From positions 62,001 to 126,000 of the forward strand of contig NZ_FOOK01000003.1 in the NCBI RefSeq assembly GCF_900113175.1: DNA of 64,000 bases, written 5' to 3'. The notes beneath the pieces were generated by a model, which saw only the letters and a program-made list of their open reading frames with translations, ran no database searches and was not told where the DNA came from. This document shows, in pieces, positions 19,657-32,819 of this stretch. Position numbers and translations under genes: made by a program. Origin of the DNA: Planifilum fulgidum (GTDB lineage: Bacteria; Bacillota; Bacilli; Thermoactinomycetales; DSM-44946). How positions within the stretch are numbered: the first letter of the stretch is position 1; every line of letters starts with the position of its first letter.

Positions 19657-20550
19657 ATGAAGTGGCTGAAAATTTTCCTCGCGCTGTTGATTATTGCCGG
19701 CGGGGCCGTCGGGGGCTATGCGTTATATCTGTACAAATCGATCGAGAGGACGGCCGATCGGATGTATCAACCCGTCACGGGGGAAACGGAAGCTCCCAAG
19801 GAAATCATCGAGAAGGAGAAGCCTTTCTGCATCCTGATCATGGGCGTGGATGAAAGGAAAGGCGATCGCGGCCGTACCGACACCATGATGGTGATGGCCG
19901 TCAATCCCCGGAAGGAGTCCGCCCTGCTCTTCAACATTCCGCGGGATACGCGCACGGAAATCGCGGGTCGGGGGATCCAGGACAAAATCAACCACGCCTA
20001 TGCCTACGGCGGGGTGAAGATGTCCATCGAGACGGTGGAACAGTTCCTCGACGTCCCGATCGATTATTACGCAAAAGTGAACATGCAGGAATTTGCGAAG
20101 ATCGTGGATGCGTTGGGAGGGGTGGAGGTGGATAACCCCTTCGCCTTCCGGTATGACGGGCACACCTTTGAGAAGGGGCGCATCCATCTGGACGGCGACA
20201 CGGCCTTGAAGTACGCGCGCATGCGCTATGAGGATCCGCGCGGGGATTTGGGCAGAAATGAGCGTCAGCGTCGGGTGTTGAAATCGATGATTGAGAAAGC
20301 GGCGTCGCCCGGGATTTTGGCCAATCTGGGCACCGTTTTGGAAAGTCTGGGATCCAGCGTGACCACCAACATCACCTTTGAGGAAATGAAAAAATTGGGC
20401 AATGACTATCGAAATGCGATTCGGCAGGTCGAGACCCTGGAAATCAAGGGGCGCGGCCGAAAGATTGACGGAATCTACTACCTGATCGTCAGCGAGGAGG
20501 AAAAGCGGCGGGTTCGGTCTCTTGTCAAAAAACAACTGGAACGGGACTGA
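19657..20550 (+). CDS. LytR-CpsA-Psr (LCP) family cell-wall polymer ligase
   Basis: The 297-residue protein has an N-terminal membrane anchor (about 4-27) and an extracytoplasmic LCP domain. The conserved polyprenyl-phosphate site residues are present: RTDTMMVMAVNP, NIPRDTR, KINHAYAYGG, and later YARMRYEDPRGDLGRNERQR. LCP proteins attach teichoic acids or other glycopolymers to peptidoglycan N-acetylmuramate. It stands at the edge of the envelope island, in the same direction as the first CDP-alcohol phosphotransferase. ATG 19657 follows AAAGGGG at nine bases; GTG 19651 is too close to it. Confidence 0.92.
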   Translation: MKWLKIFLALLIIAGGAVGGYALYLYKSIERTADRMYQPVTGETEAPKEIIEKEKPFCILIMGVDERKGDRGRTDTMMVMAVNPRKESALLFNIPRDTRTEIAGRGIQDKINHAYAYGGVKMSIETVEQFLDVPIDYYAKVNMQEFAKIVDALGGVEVDNPFAFRYDGHTFEKGRIHLDGDTALKYARMRYEDPRGDLGRNERQRRVLKSMIEKAASPGILANLGTVLESLGSSVTTNITFEEMKKLGNDYRNAIRQVETLEIKGRGRKIDGIYYLIVSEEEKRRVRSLVKKQLERD

Positions 20551-20693
20551 GCGGCCGGGTCCGCCTGTTCTGAAGGGAAGACGGAAGGGCCGCGACCTGC
20601 TGCACCGGATATCCCGAATGGGATGCCGAAACAAAAGCATTTTAATATGACATGACTTGTACGTCAGACGTTTTTGACGGGGGAGAGTAAACC

Positions 20694-21557
20694 ATGTACA
20701 CACTGGATGATGTGCGATCGACCTACAAGAAACGCGACGCCTGGTGGACCGTTTTTCTGGTGGATCCGATTGCTTCCCGGATGATGCTGATCATTGCCAA
20801 CCACACCAATCTCACGCCGAATCATATTACGGTGATTGCGTTCATACTGGGGATTTTGTCGGCTGTTTGCTTTTTTCAGGGAACCCCCGCCTTTTTGATC
20901 GCCGGGGCCCTGCTGTTTCACCTCAGCTTCACTTTCGATTGCATCGACGGGAAGCTTTCCCGGCTCAAAGGCAACGGAACCATGTTCGGCATGTGGCTGG
21001 ATTACATGCTCGATAGGGCGCGGGTCGCTTTGTGCAGTCTGGCACTGATGACGGGCCAGTTTTTAAAGACCGGCGAGCCCTTGTACATCTACCTGGCCTT
21101 TTTGATCGTCCTGCTGGATATGACCCGGTATATGAACGCCCTTCACATATTCAAGATTCGTTCCAAAATGAACAAGGAAGTCAGGAAAACCATAAGGCAG
21201 ATTTACGGCGCCACTCAACAGGAGCATTCCGAGGAGCGGGAGGAGCCTGTCGGGGAAAGAAATTCGAGGGTTGTGGACCTGAATCAGCACTTTAAATCCA
21301 GGTTCGGGTTTTATCTTCGCGTGAGGGACTGGTTGGAGAAGTATCGGATCCGGCCCCACCTGTTCAGCGGGATCGAGTATCAAATGTTCATTTTCATCAT
21401 CGGCCCGCTTGTCGGACAGATCGTGGAGATGGTCGTCGTCAGCTCGGTTCTGCTTCTCCTCTTCGAGCTCGCCATCCTGTATAAGCTTTGGCTCAGCACC
21501 CTGGACTTCAAAAAGATGATGGAAAAACTGAAACACAATCTCCCAAATGTCTCGTGA
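20694..21557 (+). CDS. CDP-alcohol phosphotransferase family protein (paralogue C)
   Basis: This 287-residue integral membrane enzyme carries the full CDP-alcohol phosphotransferase motif, read as DCIDGKLSR...G...D...D (all four Asp present; the usual Ala before Arg is Ser). The N-terminal peptide YTLDDVRSTYKKRDAWW closely matches that of the 346-residue paralogue on the other strand. The C-terminal region RPHLFSGIEYQMFIFII also matches. A cytoplasmic charged segment lies between TM4 and TM5. Such enzymes move an alcohol-phosphate from CDP to an acceptor lipid, polyol or glycan. ATG follows GGGGGAGAG. Confidence 0.9.
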   Translation: MYTLDDVRSTYKKRDAWWTVFLVDPIASRMMLIIANHTNLTPNHITVIAFILGILSAVCFFQGTPAFLIAGALLFHLSFTFDCIDGKLSRLKGNGTMFGMWLDYMLDRARVALCSLALMTGQFLKTGEPLYIYLAFLIVLLDMTRYMNALHIFKIRSKMNKEVRKTIRQIYGATQQEHSEEREEPVGERNSRVVDLNQHFKSRFGFYLRVRDWLEKYRIRPHLFSGIEYQMFIFIIGPLVGQIVEMVVVSSVLLLLFELAILYKLWLSTLDFKKMMEKLKHNLPNVS

Positions 21558-21624
21558 TGGCTCCCGGAGGCAGGTGTCGTCGGCGGGGGACGGTCCCCCG
21601 CGCCCAGGGGGCCGGATGAAAAAA

Positions 21625-21663
21625 TTGCGCCGCTACCTTGGGTTCCAAAAGGCAACGGCGCAA
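21625..21663. terminator. Bidirectional terminator between convergent CDP-alcohol phosphotransferase genes
   Basis: The arms TTGCGCCG and CGGCGCAA enclose a loop with a second CCTT/AAGG pairing. A-rich sequence precedes it and it lies between two convergent genes, so it can serve both. Confidence 0.6.
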
Positions 21664-21747
21664 ATCTCCTTTCGTTGAAGGGATTCGGATGCGGCTCAGT
21701 CCCGCGCTTTATCGGCGGCGATAGTCCGTCGGGTTCAAAACGGCCCG

Positions 21748-22788
21748 TCAACCGGTTTGTTTGGCCGGTTGACCGGATGCCTTTTCCGTTTTCGGATCGT
21801 CAGGCAGCGTCGCCGCGATCGATTCCTTGGCCTTGAGAATTTTGTCGTGTTCCCTTTCGAAATCCTGGGTGCTCAGCCACATCTTATATATGATGGCCGC
21901 CTCAAAGGCGAACAGGAGGAAAGAGCCGACGAGGATGGTTTCCTTGATGATCCCCAGGATCGGTGCCACGATGAAGATGAACATCTGGAATTCGATGCCG
22001 CTGAAGAGGTGCATGCGGATCCGCTTTGCGAGCAAAAACTCCCGGATTTTCATGTAGGTGGTGAATTTGGACTTAAACGCCTGCTGCAGATCGGTTTTGG
22101 AGTTCACCGCGACGTCCAGGGGAGCGAAAGCTTCTTCGGCTTTTGGCGTTCCCTTTTCTTGGAGCCCATCATCAGCGGATTCCTCGTCCTCTTCCTTATC
22201 CTCCGCTTCCTTTTCTTCTTCCATCGGTTTCAGGGCGATTCCGGCGGCTTCCGCCGTTTCATACAGTTCCTTCCGGGCTTTCCGCAGCTTTTTTCGCATC
22301 TCCCGGCGCAGTTTGTACAGATGAAGGGCGTTGATGTGACGCGCAAAGTAGGCGATCAAAAACAGAGACAACAGGTAAAGGTATGCAACGTCACCGGTGA
22401 GACGGAACTGGCCGAAGGTCAAAGCCACGCCGCAAAGGGCCACGCGGACATGGTCCAAACTGATGTCCAAAAGCATCCCGAAGCTGGTTCCGTTCCCCTT
22501 CAGCCGGGCGATTTTTCCATCCATGCAGTCGATGACGAAACTGATGTGATACAAAAGCGCCCCGATGACCAGGGCCCAATAGCTGCCCAGGTAAAAACAG
22601 AGCGCGGCGGTCATCCCTATGATGAAAGACGCGATGGTCAACTGGTTGGGGGTGATCTGGGTCCGATTGGCCACCGGCAGGATCAGGCGCGCGGCGACGG
22701 GGTCCACCAACAGCACGGTCCACCAGGCGTCTTTCTTTTTAAAGGTTTCCTTCACATCCTCCATTGTGTAAGTGCGTTGATTGCTCAA
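21748..22788 (-). CDS. CDP-alcohol phosphotransferase family protein (paralogue B)
   Basis: This 346-residue membrane enzyme has an intact catalytic motif (DCMDGKIAR, then G, LD and LD at the canonical spacing). It is closely related to the convergent gene at 20694 (KKKDAWWTVLLVDPVAAR against KKRDAWWTVFLVDPIASR). It has an extra, strongly acidic linker (about 195-225, EEEKEAEDKEEDEES) in the cytoplasmic loop. It is the last gene of the seven-gene minus-strand operon, directly behind the ABC ATPase. The two near-paralogues face each other tail to tail, which suggests a duplication with inversion. Confidence 0.9.
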   Translation of the reverse strand: MSNQRTYTMEDVKETFKKKDAWWTVLLVDPVAARLILPVANRTQITPNQLTIASFIIGMTAALCFYLGSYWALVIGALLYHISFVIDCMDGKIARLKGNGTSFGMLLDISLDHVRVALCGVALTFGQFRLTGDVAYLYLLSLFLIAYFARHINALHLYKLRREMRKKLRKARKELYETAEAAGIALKPMEEEKEAEDKEEDEESADDGLQEKGTPKAEEAFAPLDVAVNSKTDLQQAFKSKFTTYMKIREFLLAKRIRMHLFSGIEFQMFIFIVAPILGIIKETILVGSFLLFAFEAAIIYKMWLSTQDFEREHDKILKAKESIAATLPDDPKTEKASGQPAKQTG

Positions 22789-22795
22789 TCTGGGA

Positions 22796-23545
22796 TCACG
22801 CCCCTTTCTTCTTTTTCTTCCCCTCTTTCTGGTACTTTTCGAGGATGGTTTCGATGTCTCCGATGTCTTTGATTTGCCCCTTCTCCAAAATCATTCCCCG
22901 GTTGCAGATCTTTTTCAAGGGGGAAAGGCTGTGGGACACGATCACGAGCGTTTTCCCTGAATCCCTCAGCTCCTGCATTTTGGCGTAGCACTTCTTCTTG
23001 AAATCCTTGTCACCCACCGCGAGCACTTCGTCGATCAGAATGATGTCGGCGTCGATGTGGATGGCGATGGAAAAACCGAGGCGGGCCTTCATCCCGGAGG
23101 AGTAGAATTTCACCGGCGTGTTGATGAAATCCTCAAGCTCCGAAAACTCCACGATCTTGGGGAAAACCTCTTGGATTTGCTCCTTTTTCAATCCGAAAAT
23201 GGCACAGTTGAGGCGGATATTTTCGGCTCCGGACAGATCCCGGCTCAAACCCGCCCCGAGCTCGATGAGGGGGGCGACCTTTCCATTGACTTGCACTTCC
23301 CCTTCGTCGGGATAGATGATGCCGCTCAGGATTTTGAACAGCGTGCTTTTTCCCGCGCCGTTATTGCCCACGATGGCAAAGGATTCACCCTGCTTGATGG
23401 TGAAGGAGACGTTTTTCAAGGCGGTGAATTCGGAGTACCGCTTTTCCCCCTTGGTCAGGGAGATGAGGTATCCCTTCAACGTTTTGTCGTAGGCCTTTCG
23501 GAAATGTTTGGTCAGGTTCCTGACGACAATCGCGTCCATTGTCAA
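22796..23545 (-). CDS. Polysaccharide/teichoic acid export ABC ATPase (TagH/Wzt type)
   Basis: The 249-residue protein has Walker A GNNGAGKST, signature YSSGMKARLG, Walker B ILIDEVLAVGD and the switch SHS. The wording after Walker A (LFKILSGIIYPDEGEV, GxVAPLIELGAGL) is typical of polysaccharide and teichoic acid exporters. There is no Wzt C-terminal carbohydrate-binding domain, and no SH3-like domain as in B. subtilis TagH. It overlaps the permease gene by four bases, so the pair is one transporter. The C-terminus is Lys-rich. Confidence 0.93.
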   Translation of the reverse strand: MTMDAIVVRNLTKHFRKAYDKTLKGYLISLTKGEKRYSEFTALKNVSFTIKQGESFAIVGNNGAGKSTLFKILSGIIYPDEGEVQVNGKVAPLIELGAGLSRDLSGAENIRLNCAIFGLKKEQIQEVFPKIVEFSELEDFINTPVKFYSSGMKARLGFSIAIHIDADIILIDEVLAVGDKDFKKKCYAKMQELRDSGKTLVIVSHSLSPLKKICNRGMILEKGQIKDIGDIETILEKYQKEGKKKKKGA

Positions 23546-24354
23546 ATCACTTCCCCTACTCTACGATTGAGCCGCTTGAAAACCCCCCAGGAGATGAAAA
23601 AGATGACGATCGTTATGACAATGGTGTAAATGATCCATCTCGCTTCGACTCCTTGAGTATCCCCGTAGAAGATGGTGTGATACAGGGAAATCATGACAGC
23701 CATGGGGTTCAGCAGATAGAAATCGGCGAACCGTTCGACGACAGGCGAATCGCTGTTCATGACGAAACTGATCGGATAAATGATGGGGCAAAGGTACATC
23801 CAGGCCCGCATCAGGAGGTTGGTGATAAATTCCACATCCCTGTAGAATATGTTGAGCATGGAAACCAGGAACATGCAGGCCAGGGTGAAGACGGATTGCA
23901 GCAACAAAAACGCCGGGAGCAGGGCCAATTTGTCCCAGTGGATCGGATGACCGAAGGCCAGGGCGGCCAGGAGAACCAAAGCGAAGGCCGGAATGAAGTT
24001 GACCAGGTTGGAAAGCAGGATGGTAATCGGAAAGATTTCCCTGGGAAAGTACACTTTTTTAATGAGGGAAGAATTGCTGGACAGCGCTTTGGTTCCCGCC
24101 CTCACCGCGTTGTTGAAAAAGGTCCAGGGTATGAGTCCCGAAAGAATGAACAGGGGGTAGTTTTCAATCTTTTCCCCCCCTCTTCCGTCGATTCCCAATA
24201 TCAGGGAAAACACAATCGTGTAAATCACCATCAATCCCAGGGGTTCCAACAGGGACCAGAAAAAGCCGAAGAACGAGTTGCGATATTTGATGCGCACCTC
24301 TTTGTGCACGAGAAAATAAAGCAATTCCTTGTACTTCATCATCTCTGCAAACAT
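23542..24354 (-). CDS. Polysaccharide/teichoic acid export ABC permease (TagG/Wzm type)
   Basis: The 270-residue ABC-2 permease has about six transmembrane helices. The N-terminal motif ELLYFLVHKEVRIKYRNSFFG followed by WSLLEPLG is diagnostic of TagG/Wzm exporters of lipid-linked glycopolymers. It flips the undecaprenyl-linked polymer out of the cell together with the ATPase gene it overlaps. The polymer would then be a substrate for the LCP ligase nearby. Confidence 0.93.
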   Translation of the reverse strand: MFAEMMKYKELLYFLVHKEVRIKYRNSFFGFFWSLLEPLGLMVIYTIVFSLILGIDGRGGEKIENYPLFILSGLIPWTFFNNAVRAGTKALSSNSSLIKKVYFPREIFPITILLSNLVNFIPAFALVLLAALAFGHPIHWDKLALLPAFLLLQSVFTLACMFLVSMLNIFYRDVEFITNLLMRAWMYLCPIIYPISFVMNSDSPVVERFADFYLLNPMAVMISLYHTIFYGDTQGVEARWIIYTIVITIVIFFISWGVFKRLNRRVGEVI

Positions 24355-24368
24355 TCCCGGTTGACTCC

Positions 24369-25472
24369 TTATTTGGCTGATGAACCGATGGGCCGGTAGC
24401 GGTTTTTCGCTTCCTCGGGGAAGACTTCTTCCAAAATGGCATCGATCTGCTTGTCCGTCAGGCTGAATTCGTCAAGGATGGTGTACCGGTTACGCATCGA
24501 GGGAGCCAGGCGGATGGCCCGGCGCATCTCCTCTTTTGTATAGCCGAGGTCCTCGTAATGGGTCGGCAGTCCCAGCTTTTCATAATAGGGGCGGAGCAGT
24601 TCCACTTCTTGGCGCTTGCTTTGCAGGTACTGGGAGATCAGGACGCCGATGGCCACCTGCTCTCCGTGCAGGGCCTTGGCCCCGCAGTGGAAGTCCAGGG
24701 CATGGCTGATCAAATGTTCCGAACCGCTGCAGGGACGGCTGGATCCGGCCACGGACATGGCGATTCCGCTCATGATCAGCGATTCGGCGGCGGACTTCAA
24801 CAGGCTGGACCGGTCCAGATCTCCCCGGTTCACGGTGTTCATGAAGGATTCAACCGCATTTTTGGCCATCAAGGCGGCAAAGGTGTTCATCTCTTCGATG
24901 CCGGCCTGGTGAGCGAGTTGCCAATCGAACAGGGCGGTCCTGTTGGACAAAAGATCGCCGATCCCGGCGGCCGCCAGCCGGGGAGGACTGGATGCCAGGA
25001 TGTCCAGGTCGATCACCACCGCCAGCGGCATTCGAACCCCGATGCTGGTGCTCCGGTGCATCATTTTAATAACGGCAACCGGCGAGCAGATGGCGTCACT
25101 GGAAGCGGCGGTGGGGAACAGGACCACCGGCACGTTGCAGCGGGTTCCGACCACCTTGGATACGTCCAGGGCTTTTCCTCCGCCGATGCCGAAGATGTAG
25201 TCGGGGGTATCCTCCAACACCTTCCGTTCCAGCCGGTTGATGGTGTCCAGCGTGTTGCTTTCGCAGGACAGGATGTGGATCTCTCGCGCCTGGGGCCGGA
25301 TGGTGTCCCGGATCATTCCGGCCAGGTTGAGGGTGTTGTTGCTCCCGCAGATCAGAAACACCTTTTTGTCCTTCAACCATTCGTACACCGGGGTCTTCGG
25401 GAGGCGGGAGACGGCGCCGTGTTCGATGATCAAATGGATGGGAATGCGAATTTTGTTTGCCAATGGAATCAC
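24369..25472 (-). CDS. sn-Glycerol-1-phosphate dehydrogenase (EgsA/AraM) homologue
   Basis: The 367-residue Fe/Zn-alcohol-dehydrogenase-fold protein has the nucleotide-binding turn FGIGGGKALDVSK and FPTAASSDAICSP. The metal ligands are Asp in AAGIGDLLSN, His in SGSEHLISH and His in KALHGEQV. This set is typical of glycerol-1-phosphate dehydrogenases, which reduce dihydroxyacetone phosphate to sn-glycerol-1-phosphate. It sits between a nucleotidyltransferase and an exporter. It could supply G1P for a CDP-activated unit of a surface polymer, for the PcrB enzyme encoded at 32.1 kb, or both. A related dehydrogenase acting on another polyol-phosphate precursor cannot be ruled out. Confidence 0.82.
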   Translation of the reverse strand: MIPLANKIRIPIHLIIEHGAVSRLPKTPVYEWLKDKKVFLICGSNNTLNLAGMIRDTIRPQAREIHILSCESNTLDTINRLERKVLEDTPDYIFGIGGGKALDVSKVVGTRCNVPVVLFPTAASSDAICSPVAVIKMMHRSTSIGVRMPLAVVIDLDILASSPPRLAAAGIGDLLSNRTALFDWQLAHQAGIEEMNTFAALMAKNAVESFMNTVNRGDLDRSSLLKSAAESLIMSGIAMSVAGSSRPCSGSEHLISHALDFHCGAKALHGEQVAIGVLISQYLQSKRQEVELLRPYYEKLGLPTHYEDLGYTKEEMRRAIRLAPSMRNRYTILDEFSLTDKQIDAILEEVFPEEAKNRYRPIGSSAK

Positions 25473-25478
25473 TCCGTT

Positions 25479-26192
25479 TTAATTCAACACGGTTGCGGCC
25501 ATTTTGCGGGCGGTTTCCAAGTCGTTGAAGTCGTCGATTTCGATCCAGGGATATCCGCAGGTGTCCACGCCGACGATGGTGACGGCGTCGGCACAAGCAT
25601 CGTATACGTTCTCATACCAGGCATTGGTGTCGCCGGCTTCGATCATTTGCCGGGCCGTGCGGTAAAGGATTTCCAAATCGGGCTTGGCCAGTTTCGAAAT
25701 CCCGATGTATTCCCCGTCTGCTTTATCCAACGGGATTTTCTTGCTGATCTCCGTCAACCGGCCGTTTTCAAGCTTGACGCGCATCGCTTCTTCCGTCAGT
25801 TTCTTTTGCCGGTCCACCAGGATTGCCGTCGGGGCGTCGTGGTTCAGGAGCAGGGGAATCATGCGATCGTCGTAAAAATCGTCGGAATTGATCAGGAGCA
25901 GGTCGTCCCCGATCGATTCGGTCAAAAGAAAGGAGTAGATGTTGTTCATCGTGTCAAAATGGGAATTGTAGATGAACCGGACATCCGTGCCCCGGAAATG
26001 TTCCTGGATCCGTTCCATCTTGTAGCCGCCGAGAATGTGAATGTCCTTTTCCTTGAATCCGGCCTTCAGGACGCTCTCCACCTGATATTGCACCAGGGGT
26101 TTGTCCTGAACCCGAATCATTGCCTTCGGTTTGTCATCCGTTTCCGGCCGCAATCGGCTGCCTACACCGGCTGCGAGAATAACCACTTTCAT
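25479..26192 (-). CDS. LicC-like sugar/polyol-phosphate nucleotidyltransferase
   Basis: The 237-residue protein is a single nucleotidyltransferase domain: ILAAGVGSRLRPETDDKPKA at the start, LLINSDDFYDD as metal site, and IEIDDFNDLETAR at the end. The blocks MNNIYSFLL and KPLVQYQVE resemble choline-phosphate cytidylyltransferase LicC and inositol-phosphate cytidylyltransferases. In context it most likely charges a phosphoalcohol with CTP to make the CDP-alcohol used by the phosphotransferases. It lies seven bases upstream of the G1P dehydrogenase gene, so CDP-glycerol of the sn-1 series is the simplest product. That is inference. Confidence 0.85.
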   Translation of the reverse strand: MKVVILAAGVGSRLRPETDDKPKAMIRVQDKPLVQYQVESVLKAGFKEKDIHILGGYKMERIQEHFRGTDVRFIYNSHFDTMNNIYSFLLTESIGDDLLLINSDDFYDDRMIPLLLNHDAPTAILVDRQKKLTEEAMRVKLENGRLTEISKKIPLDKADGEYIGISKLAKPDLEILYRTARQMIEAGDTNAWYENVYDACADAVTIVGVDTCGYPWIEIDDFNDLETARKMAATVLN

Positions 26193-26213
26193 TATTCGAC
26201 ACTCCTTGCATCC

Positions 26214-26978
26214 TCAATTCGAATTCAGTGCCTTCAGCACGTGATATAACCGGAACGCTGTCTTTCCCCCCCACAGGATGAGGAAAGAGGCGATGAACCA
26301 GGCGATCAAAGGCAGGCCCGACAGGGATTCCAGCCAGAGAAACAGGGGAAGCATGGCGAAAAATCCGGGCAGCCCGGTGACAAAGGCGACACATTCCCAA
26401 AAAAAGGATGTGGTCCGCATGTCGCTGACCGGATCGCTTTCCTCCGTCTGCATATGGGTGTAATGGTAGGCGAAGGGAATGGCCAAGCCCATCGTGGCAG
26501 CCAGGGTCGCAAGGTAAACCCCCGAGGCGGACCACAGGTCAAGGGATGTTTCCGCGGCCAAGGCGTGAGCCGAAAGGGCGAAGGCTGCCAGAATGGGGAT
26601 GCTCGTGTAACGGATCAGCGTGTCGAGGAAGACCCCCAGCCTGCCGGTTTTCCCTCTGAGACGGGCCAGTTCGCCGTCGATGCAGTCGCACAGATAGCCG
26701 AGGTTGTAGGCGAGGACCGCCGTCAGCATCGCCCAGGGCTTTGTCCACAGCATGAGCCAGCCCGAAAGGATGAAAAAGAAAAGGCTGAGCCAGGTTACCG
26801 CGTTGGGGGTGATCGGAGTACGTCGAAGCAGCAAGGTGATGTAGATGGAGATCCTCCTGAGCACATACCAGGACCAGAGGTCTTCCTTCCGCCGCGGTTT
26901 CTGACACTGGACTCGGTATTCGAGGATCTTGGCCGAATCAACGGGAAGCGTCGGCAAGTTCTTGCGGAGCTCTTTCAT
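26214..26978 (-). CDS. CDP-alcohol phosphotransferase family protein (paralogue A), altered catalytic site
   Basis: The 254-residue membrane protein has the family motif as DCIDGELAR, eight residues, G, three residues, D, three residues, and then Arg where the fourth, catalytic-base Asp belongs (GVFLDTLIR). It also differs from the other two paralogues by lacking the KRDAWW N-terminus. It may be catalytically changed, act as a binding or partner subunit, or use another base. Its start lies inside the end of the glycosyltransferase gene (41-base overlap), so the two are translationally linked. Confidence 0.85.
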   Translation of the reverse strand: MKELRKNLPTLPVDSAKILEYRVQCQKPRRKEDLWSWYVLRRISIYITLLLRRTPITPNAVTWLSLFFFILSGWLMLWTKPWAMLTAVLAYNLGYLCDCIDGELARLRGKTGRLGVFLDTLIRYTSIPILAAFALSAHALAAETSLDLWSASGVYLATLAATMGLAIPFAYHYTHMQTEESDPVSDMRTTSFFWECVAFVTGLPGFFAMLPLFLWLESLSGLPLIAWFIASFLILWGGKTAFRLYHVLKALNSN

Positions 26979-27966
26979 GATTCCTCCAGTAGTGTTTGCT
27001 AAATAAACTCGCGACGGAACCGAGACCCCGGCTGAAATGGAGCAGGAAAAAACTCAACATGCAGGGGAAGAAGTATTTCCATCCCTTTTTTTTGACGATC
27101 CCCCAGGAAGAATAAATCAGCAGCGCAAAATAGGCGCCGATCAGGCTGAGCAGGGTGTATCCGGCCAAAGGGCTGAAAAAGGCCCCGATGCCCAGAACCA
27201 GTCCCACCAGCACGGTCAAAAAGGGGATGAGATGGCGCCACCTCAGCACGCCGATCCCCCGTTTGCTGGCCACCATGGTCCATTTGCCGTCGCTGAAGGA
27301 CTTCTTGATGAAGGCGGACAGGGTGTTGCGCACAAAATAGGTGGAACGGATGGAAGTGGACAGGAAGAAGGTGCCTCCCTGGTTCCGGATCCGGGCATGC
27401 ATTTCCAGATCTTCATTCCGCTTCAGGGTCTCGTCGAAGTAACCGACCTTGTCGAATATCTCCCGCTTGTATGCCGCATAGGGTACGGTGTCCACATATC
27501 CTTCCCAATCCGATTTGGTCGTGCGGAATTTGGAATTGCCGACCCCGAAGGGATGGGAGTAGACGTACGCGTTGACCTCTCCCCAAAAGCCCTTTCCAAC
27601 GGTTTCCACAATCCCGCCCACGCAGGCGGCGGAGGGCACCCGCTGCACAACCCGGTAGGTGCTGGACAGAAAATCCCGGGGAATTTGACTGTGCCCGTCG
27701 ACGCGTATCACGTATTCCCCGTTGGCATGCTGGATGCCCAGGTTCCATCCCGTCGCCAGCGTTTTCTTCGGATTGTTGTACACGCGGATCCGGTCCCGGT
27801 GACGTTTCCGGAATGACTCGATGATTTCCGGACTGCGGTCCACGGATTCCCCGTCCACCACGATGATTTCGTACTTGTCCTGGGGAAAGTCCTGGTTTAA
27901 AATCGCTTCCAGCAGGTTTTCCAAATATTTTTCCTCGTTTCGGACAACCAGCAGAAACGAAAAAAT
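26938..27966 (-). CDS. GT2 family glycosyltransferase with C-terminal membrane region
   Basis: The GT-A fold is complete only if translation starts upstream of the first ordinary start codon. IFSFLLVVRNEEKYLENLLE is the conserved first strand, with IIVVDGESVDRS, VIRVDGHSQIP (DxD equivalent) and KRNEDLEMHARIRNQGG later. Two or three C-terminal hydrophobic segments (about 245-315) anchor it in the membrane. No ATG, GTG or TTG lies between an in-frame TGA and this strand. An ATT at 27966 follows GAGGAG by exactly six bases and is my preferred start; TTG 27924 would delete the first strand. It is the first gene of the island operon and probably adds the priming or repeating sugar. Confidence 0.85.
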   Translation of the reverse strand: MFSFLLVVRNEEKYLENLLEAILNQDFPQDKYEIIVVDGESVDRSPEIIESFRKRHRDRIRVYNNPKKTLATGWNLGIQHANGEYVIRVDGHSQIPRDFLSSTYRVVQRVPSAACVGGIVETVGKGFWGEVNAYVYSHPFGVGNSKFRTTKSDWEGYVDTVPYAAYKREIFDKVGYFDETLKRNEDLEMHARIRNQGGTFFLSTSIRSTYFVRNTLSAFIKKSFSDGKWTMVASKRGIGVLRWRHLIPFLTVLVGLVLGIGAFFSPLAGYTLLSLIGAYFALLIYSSWGIVKKKGWKYFFPCMLSFFLLHFSRGLGSVASLFSKHYWRNHERAPQELADASR

Positions 27967-28035
27967 CGGTTTCTCCTCGATGGCGGATCACTTCTCTCTT
28001 CTGCACTTGCGGCAGTTAATCCCTCGGTCGTACCT

Positions 28036-28064
28036 ATGATAACACGTACCCGTTGTTACGACAA
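28036..28064 (-). promoter_or_regulatory. Sigma-A promoter of the seven-gene envelope operon
   Basis: On the minus strand TTGTCG (28059-28064) and TATCAT (28036-28041) are separated by exactly 17 bases. Transcription would begin near 28029, about 60 bases before the glycosyltransferase start. Confidence 0.65.
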
Positions 28065-31871: not shown

Positions 31872-32093
31872 GGGGATCGGGCTGGATCGACGGGAGGCCG
31901 AGCGGATGATGCCGAAGGACGGGGAAGGGCGGCGGGCGATCGGTCTAACCATGCAGGCGGGGGCGACTCCGCTTTTTTTGTGCGCAGGGGGCGCCTCAAG
32001 CGGCTTCTTCCGTCCGGCGGGCGGACAGGGCGAGGCATGCCGCATTTGCGTTATAATGAGTTAGAGCGTGCGACGAACAGGGGGGAGCCCGAA

Positions 32094-32819
32094 ATGTTGT
32101 CGGAACGGGTGGCTTCGTGGCGGCACGTGTTTAAACTGGATCCGAACCGGGCCATTTCCGACGGGGCCCTGGACCGGATTTGCCGTTCGGGGACGGATGC
32201 GGTGATCATCGGCGGAACCGACGGGATCACCTTTGAAAACACCTGGGAATTGCTCAAGCGGGTTCGCCGCTATGATGTGCCCTGTTATCAGGAAGTATCG
32301 ACGAAGTCGGCGGTGATTCCCGAATTTGACGGCTTTTTGATCCCCGTCGTCCTCAACGCCGAAGATCCCCGTTGGCTGATCGGCGCCCACCACGAAGCGA
32401 TCCGGTTGTACGGCCGCTATATCCCCTGGGAGCGGGTCGTGCCGGAAGGGTATGTGGTCCTGAATCCGGATTCCAGGGTGGCCCGCCTGACCAAAGCCCG
32501 GTCTTCCCTGTCCGAGGAGGAGGTGACCGCCTATGCCCGCCTGGCGGAACACCTCTTTCGGATGCCGGTCGTCTATGTGGAATACAGCGGGCGTTACGGC
32601 GACCCCCGGTTGATTCGGGCGGCCCGGGCGGGGATCGTCCGGAGCCGGCTTTTTTACGGCGGGGGGATCAGCACCCCGGAGCAGGCCCGGGAAGCCGCCC
32701 GCCTGGCGGATACGGTGGTCGTGGGCAACCTGATCTATTACAATGTGGATGCCGCGGTGCAAACCGTTCGCCACGTGAGGGAGACCCCCCGGGAGGCGGG
32801 GCCTGACGCTCTGCGATGA
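32094..32819 (+). CDS. pcrB: Heptaprenylglyceryl phosphate synthase
   Basis: This TIM-barrel prenyltransferase of 241 residues has FKLDPNRAISD, GTDAVIIGGTDGITFEN, VYVEYSGRYGDP and YGGGISTPEQA, matching PcrB. It joins sn-glycerol-1-phosphate to heptaprenyl diphosphate, the bacterial counterpart of archaeal GGGP synthase. ATG 32094 follows GGGGGAG; the upstream open frame is not conserved. A glycerol-1-phosphate dehydrogenase homologue lies 7 kb away, so both steps of the pathway are in this window. It precedes pcrA, in the classic Bacillus order. Confidence 0.95.
   Translation: MLSERVASWRHVFKLDPNRAISDGALDRICRSGTDAVIIGGTDGITFENTWELLKRVRRYDVPCYQEVSTKSAVIPEFDGFLIPVVLNAEDPRWLIGAHHEAIRLYGRYIPWERVVPEGYVVLNPDSRVARLTKARSSLSEEEVTAYARLAEHLFRMPVVYVEYSGRYGDPRLIRAARAGIVRSRLFYGGGISTPEQAREAARLADTVVVGNLIYYNVDAAVQTVRHVRETPREAGPDALR

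Follow-up and report, generated by a model that had tools for sequence, protein, structure and literature searches.

A conserved operon of Planifilum fulgidum is a candidate for a dedicated sn-glycerol-1-phosphate route into an exported envelope molecule

The stretch of Planifilum fulgidum DNA analyzed here (64,000 nucleotides of contig NZ_FOOK01000003.1, hereafter the window) contains an island of nine genes at positions 19657-28064, seven of which appear to form one operon. We propose that this operon is, rather probably, a dedicated route that carries sn-glycerol-1-phosphate (G1P) into an exported envelope molecule. G1P is a textbook archaeal metabolite; in bacteria, its established role is as a building block of minor ether lipids, the PcrB product among them. 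Our proposal rests on the fixed partnership of genes for a nucleotidyltransferase (NTase), a G1P dehydrogenase (G1PDH), CDP-alcohol phosphotransferases (CAPTs), and an ATP-binding cassette (ABC) exporter in 14 members of the order and in 44 actinobacterial loci. It also rests on the signature and metal ligands of the G1PDH, the fold and motif of the NTase, the intact motif in the CAPTs that we call CapB and CapC, and the lack of the classical teichoic acid genes that were searched for.

The genome that holds the window is 3.38 Mb in size and 99.99% complete. On the minus strand, the genes for a family 2 glycosyltransferase (GT2), CapA, the NTase, the G1PDH homologue, the ABC permease, the ABC ATPase, and CapB follow one another with gaps or overlaps that are all below 45 bp, and we therefore read them as one operon. 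Facing them on the plus strand are a LytR-CpsA-Psr (LCP) ligase gene and CapC. A sequence-only reading of the window had described this nine-gene arrangement, including three CAPTs, and all nine genes are in place, with three proteins of the CAPT fold among their products. Families and types were assigned with Pfam profiles, and NCBIfam models were applied at their curated cut-offs. The features are as follows.

28036..28064, minus strand: sigma-70-like promoter 5' of the operon, TTGTCG-17-TATCAT with an extended TG at the -10 element; base-for-base the same in a congener
26938..~27966, minus strand: GT2 (PF00535, E 7e-29); probable ATT start at 27966
26214..26978, minus strand: CapA, CAPT fold (PF01066; AlphaFold2 [AF2] model); motif D..DG..AR...G...D, in which Arg takes the place of the fourth Asp
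25479..26192, minus strand: NTase of the LicC/PntC type, predicted CTP:sn-glycerol-1-phosphate cytidylyltransferase (family match, sequence, structure model)
24369..25472, minus strand: G1PDH, EgsA-like, predicted NAD(P)-dependent sn-glycerol-1-phosphate dehydrogenase (PRK00843.1, E 1e-81; PDB 4rgq/4rfl/5fb3)
23542..24354, minus strand: permease of the ABC-2 exporter, Wzm/TagG-like (PF01061, E 1e-12; NCBIfam galactan permease model at 1e-20, under its cut-off)
22796..23545, minus strand: ABC exporter ATPase, TagH/Wzt type, without a C-terminal extension (PF00005; NCBIfam TagH, 4e-64 to 4e-71, below cut-off)
21748..22788, minus strand: CapB, CAPT (PF01066); complete motif D..DG..AR...G...D...D
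20694..21557, plus strand: CapC, paralogue of CapB and a local addition (PF01066); complete Asp set
19657..20550, plus strand: LCP ligase, TagU-like, a local neighbor (PF03816, E 5e-52; NCBIfam TagU, 3e-112, below cut-off)
31980..32819, plus strand: PcrB heptaprenylglyceryl-phosphate synthase, a neighbor outside the island (NCBIfam NF003197, 303.7 bits, passing the cut-off of 260)

We searched 60 relatives for the island G1PDH and found it at 59-92% identity in 13 of them, as well as in the genome of the window itself, with the NTase gene adjacent every time. The operon is kept in these 14 genomes, which belong to three families of the order (f1, f2, and f3), and is altered at CapA in two of them. 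The gene order from GT2 to CapB is retained in neighborhoods from all three families; the flanking genes vary, with purD/purH in one member of f3 and sugar and polysaccharide genes in f2. In one relative (G019) a CapC-like gene occupies the CapB position, and in another (G003) the operon has an LCP relative nearby. Because the gene set is contiguous in three families and recurs, reordered, in Actinomycetota, its conservation is more than chance. In one congener, IspD/TarI-like, short-chain dehydrogenase/reductase, and TarF-like genes adjoin the island (locus L059, 13226-16127) and resemble a CDP-ribitol polymer module; the TarF-like family has no match in the genome of the window.

The breadth of the cassette in Actinomycetota was assessed by a pattern-seeded scan of named genomes together with a published study (PMC13118837). 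The scan found the operon in Marinithermofilum, Kroppenstedtia, Melghirimyces, Paludifilum, and Marininema, and cassette genes in many Streptomyces, in Microtetraspora, and in a Nitriliruptorales metagenome-assembled genome (MAG). The 44 actinobacterial loci are arranged as CAPT(+DUF5941)-NTase-G1PDH-CAPT-GT2-permease-ATPase; all seven genes are present in 34, and one locus is cut by the end of its contig. The DUF5941 domain (PF19365), which is fused to the counterpart of CapB, for example in locus L099 (7702-9126) and in other Streptomyces loci, may belong to the pathway. Fictibacillus, Peribacillus, and a Microgenomatus MAG have a reduced NTase-G1PDH-CAPT core. In the Fictibacillus and Peribacillus loci (L078, 8230-12002, with a gene of the CotS/CotI-type spore-coat family, and L079), a kinase-like gene lies next to this core, which hints at a spore-envelope product.

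The cassette was already known as a gene set, since a synteny study published in 2026, which covered 929 Streptomyces genomes, lists CAPT, GT2, tagG, tagH, araM, and sugar-phosphate nucleotidyltransferase genes as teichoic acid-associated neighbors (PMC13118837). This syntenic region is evidently the same cassette as ours; the passage that describes it gives the teichoic acid label without a pathway, stereochemistry, or Bacillota counterpart. We found no published function for the cassette, and literature searches on CDP-glycerol with G1P and Streptomyces, on DUF5941, and on CDP-2-glycerol, which mostly did not reach subscription papers, returned nothing relevant.

The dehydrogenase strongly resembles archaeal G1PDH. 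Its best NCBIfam model by far is PRK00843.1 (274.6 bits), and the closest solved structures are archaeal G1PDHs together with 3ce9. The metal ligands D173, H253, and H269 are conserved, as is the signature SSRPCSGSEH, and the stretch SSRPCSGSEHLISHALD is nearly identical to that of the solved archaeal enzyme 5fb3 (SSRPCSGSEHLFAHAIE), unlike the glycerol-dehydrogenase-type relatives that we saw. The earlier assignment to the EgsA/G1PDH type is thus borne out. Most genomes of family f6 contain PcrB, and neither a G1PDH nor an AraM protein passed the threshold of the search in them.

For the NTase, the solved structure 1jyk is the best match by sequence. The structure model of the NTase (predicted local distance difference test score, 91.5) lies nearest the cytidylyltransferases PntC (Z 27.5), LicC (Z 25.0), and IPCT (Z 24.6), whose products are CMP-phosphonates or CDP-alcohols, in agreement with the LicC-like label given before, although sequence identity to these three enzymes is only about 20-24%. 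The cassette NTases of three phyla have a common motif, EE.MKV..GEY(I/V)GI..(Y/W)YE..E(I/V)D, which is shared incompletely by LicC and by a non-cassette NTase from Lachnospiraceae.

CapB, CapC, and the DUF5941-fused actinobacterial CAPT have the complete four-Asp motif D..DG..AR..(7-8)G...D...D (PS00379), with Ser replacing Ala in the AR pair of CapC in the window. CapA retains the first three Asps, and the fourth is Arg in Bacillota, Ala in Streptomyces, and His in Nitriliruptorales. In Mycobacterium tuberculosis phosphatidylinositol phosphate (PIP) synthase, the fourth Asp (D93) binds metal and probably serves as the base, and enzyme mutated at this residue is inactive (PMC9385802). The AF2 model of CapA is nearest AF2299 (Z 11.8 over 193 residues; root mean square deviation, 4.8), and known CAPTs fill the top rows of the comparison. 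As judged from model and sequence, CapA thus has kept the CAPT fold and lost the base in two phyla, and CapA-type CAPTs that lack the catalytic fourth Asp are newly recognized here. A tree with long branches did not resolve whether CapA and CapB arose from one ancient duplication.

Could an ordinary glycerol teichoic acid be made by tag genes elsewhere in this genome, as the sequence-only reading had considered? Per-family profile searches of the genome gave no match to TagB/TagF (PF04464), TagD (TIGR01518), or TagA (PF03808), which makes this source unlikely; LtaS-type proteins (PF00884) likewise gave no match. Matches to PF00953 (TagO/WecA type) are MraY, whose gene is flanked by a murF-like and a murD-like gene, and one weak relative of 302 amino acids (aa). 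A row of genes on contig C4 of this genome (locus L168, 1037-4494), named by eye as SteA-like, MctB-like, a small GT2, and a weak MraY/WecA relative, may be a separate envelope locus. A link between the island and loss of LtaS was considered and dropped: LtaS-type domains are absent from 9 of the 14 island genomes and from 11 of 28 others, a difference that is too weak and is confounded by phylogeny.

For the exporter, the best NCBIfam models (TagH for the ATPase and the galactan exporter Wzm for the permease) all score under their curated cut-offs, and the exporter type is assigned by Pfam. The label "TagGH-type exporter" therefore holds for the kind of transporter and not for its specific identity. 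At the 5' end of the operon, the conserved N terminus of GT2 has no ATG, GTG, or TTG start codon. Several GT2 homologues start at M(V)FSFLLVVRNE, and both congeners have GAGGAG followed by ATT at this position, with an in-frame stop just 5'; the site in the window (27961-27990, minus strand) is identical in a congener. On these grounds, translation of GT2 likely starts at a rare ATT codon (27966) behind GAGGAG.

Based on these observations, we envision the following pathway. The G1PDH, as its sequence strongly indicates, would reduce dihydroxyacetone phosphate (DHAP) to G1P, and the NTase, judging from its gene partner, fold, and subfamily motif, would join G1P and CTP into CDP-glycerol of the sn-1 series. 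CapB, and here also CapC, with their full CAPT motif, could then transfer glycerol-1-phosphate from CDP-glycerol onto a membrane-bound glycan or lipid, either as a decoration or as a short polymer, whereas CapA might act on an acceptor for which deprotonation is unnecessary or might have a binding, regulatory, or partner role. GT2 would add sugar to the product, the ABC pair would flip the lipid-linked product, and in this genus the LCP ligase may attach it to the wall. The scheme would resemble teichoic acid synthesis or decoration with an archaeal-type supply of glycerol phosphate and with CAPTs in place of TagF or LtaS. Much of it had been anticipated from the sequence: the series from DHAP through G1P and CDP-glycerol to CAPT transfer and export agrees with the enzyme families and with the absence of the tag genes searched for, although that account overlooked PcrB and the lost base of CapA.

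Several observations weigh against this scheme. The G1PDH scores below the equivalog cut-off of PRK00843.1 (413 bits), so we call it G1PDH-like, with its function a prediction. LicC and IPCT lie within one Z unit of sugar-phosphate nucleotidyltransferases, with PntC standing clear, and the cytidylyltransferase assignment is therefore a lean, not a proof; moreover, the substrate of the NTase cannot be read from its sequence. The best NCBIfam matches of the CAPT proteins are archaetidylinositol-phosphate synthase models, at scores below cut-off. Membership in the cassette is also uneven. The operon of one relative (G008) has no CapA gene, and in G003 the gene looks frameshifted, split between two frames; CapA is thus not always needed, and its absence in G008 weakens the idea that it is an essential primer. 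The LCP ligase and CapC fall outside the conserved set and stand beside the operon as they do here in this genus only, and a GT2 match is missing from 9 of the 44 actinobacterial loci. In Fictibacillus and Peribacillus the core lacks the ABC pair and lies beside a spore-coat kinase of the CotS/CotI type, which suggests that products may differ. Finally, as the only close G1PDH-like protein in its genome, the island enzyme could also supply PcrB.

This last point leads to a rival explanation, in which the G1PDH feeds only PcrB. PcrB converts G1P into heptaprenylglyceryl phosphate, the precursor in Bacillus of an acetylated carrier lipid for lipoprotein acetylation (PMC12345273). The NTase and CAPTs would then be mere neighbors that use another alcohol phosphate. 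The gene for PcrB lies 6.5 kb away, and the sole G1PDH of the genome would suit such a role. However, PcrB is found in 38 of 42 relatives, including 25 of 28 that lack the island, whereas the island is found in 14 genomes; in one island genome (G015) PcrB was not detected, and three island genomes also encode a separate AraM-type protein (L030-L032). The link of the G1PDH to an NTase and CAPTs, moreover, extends as far as another phylum. Because the distribution of PcrB does not track the island, PcrB may tap the same supply of G1P yet leaves the cassette unexplained, and we regard this explanation as unlikely. A membrane lipid or glycolipid modified with an sn-1 glycerophospho head group, much as choline/ethanolamine phosphotransferases act on diacylglycerol, and then flipped by the ABC pair seems to us a quite unlikely alternative to a wall polymer as the product. 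The acceptors of CAPTs are usually lipids, the CapA model is also similar to choline phosphotransferases (Z about 9), and the ATPase lacks a carbohydrate-binding extension; on the other hand, GT2 enzymes and ABC-2 exporters of this type mostly serve glycans, and an LCP ligase adjoins the operon in this genus.

Other activated alcohols deserve less weight. The pneumococcal capsule genes gtp1-gtp2-gtp3 reportedly encode a CDP-2-glycerol pathway (Wang et al., 2010), and by analogy the dehydrogenase might reduce dihydroxyacetone and the NTase might activate glycerol-2-phosphate, or another CDP-polyol might be formed. A Lachnospiraceae locus (L123, 8727-12439) has the order G1PDH-NTase-haloacid dehalogenase (HAD), like the pneumococcal genes as they are said to be arranged, and its dehydrogenase carries the G1PDH signature. 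The cassette has no HAD gene, the Lachnospiraceae NTase is without the GEYIGI motif of cassette NTases, and the window dehydrogenase bears the archaeal G1PDH signature, which together make this pathway improbable. Inositol phosphate, phosphonate, and phosphocholine pathways employ the same folds, as the NTase matches to PntC, LicC, and IPCT and the sub-cut-off CAPT matches illustrate. Yet none of them needs a G1PDH; the operon has no kinase; inositol-1-phosphate synthase (PF01658) is absent from the genome of the window and present in 1 of 14 island genomes, although scavenged inositol is a possible source; and PepM (phosphoenolpyruvate mutase) was not found in the genome of the window, where its model matched a 456-aa isocitrate-lyase-like frame and weak candidates. 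We consider these pathways highly improbable, and the inositol-type head group that had been raised as an alternative is disfavored.

The proposed G1P route would not be new for its stereochemistry. Lipoteichoic acid (LTA) is already a polymer of sn-glycerol-1-phosphate (PMC7086022), so a polymer of opposite stereochemistry to classical teichoic acid is not in itself a novelty, contrary to what had been supposed. GlpQ degrades sn-3 wall teichoic acid and leaves intact sn-1 LTA uncut (PMC7086022). The new element would be a cytosolic, G1PDH-dependent and CDP-activated route to sn-1 glycerol phosphate. If correct, this combination of G1PDH, CTP activation, CAPTs, and export, which crosses phyla, would give G1P a role at the bacterial surface, and the CapA lineage would present a mechanistic puzzle as a group of natural CAPTs without the general base. 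A bolder version, which we offer tentatively and think unlikely, is a route to an sn-1 polymer that is free of LtaS: cytosolic CDP-sn-glycerol-1-phosphate would be the donor, base-less CapA would prime an ionized acceptor such as polyprenyl phosphate, CapB would extend or decorate, and the ABC pair would export. Streptomyces hygroscopicus has a poly(glycerol-phosphate) LTA even though Actinobacteria are without clear LtaS orthologues (PMC3196553). The cassette is a candidate source of such unexplained glycerol-phosphate polymers, and the LtaS-free route, if true, would explain poly(glycerol-phosphate) LTA in Actinobacteria and in Bacillota such as P. fulgidum.

The operon can be compared with several known systems. 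The NTase shares its fold with LicC (phosphocholine), PntC (phosphonate), and IPCT (inositol-1-phosphate), its top three enzymes by Z score, but has its own subfamily motif and a G1PDH as gene partner. CapB shares the membrane CAPT fold and Asp motif with AF2299, IPCT-DIPPS, and PIP synthase and differs by a charged insert, whereas CapA differs from PIP synthase at the position of the likely base (PMC9385802). With the wall teichoic acid pathway (TagO/A/D/B/F, TagGH, LCP), the operon has in common the logic of CDP-activated glycerol, the type of ABC exporter, and an LCP neighbor; TagA, TagD, and TagB/F were not found in this genome, and the dehydrogenase and transferases belong to other families. 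Relative to type I LTA, which LtaS makes with sn-glycerol-1-phosphate from phosphatidylglycerol, the sn-1 stereochemistry would be common to both (PMC7086022), but an LtaS-type protein was not found here, and the glycerol phosphate would be activated with CTP, in the cytosol. With archaeal EgsA and bacterial AraM, the dehydrogenase shares its fold, metal ligands, and SRP.SG.EH signature, and here it is partnered with an NTase, CAPTs, and an exporter rather than with an ether-lipid pathway.

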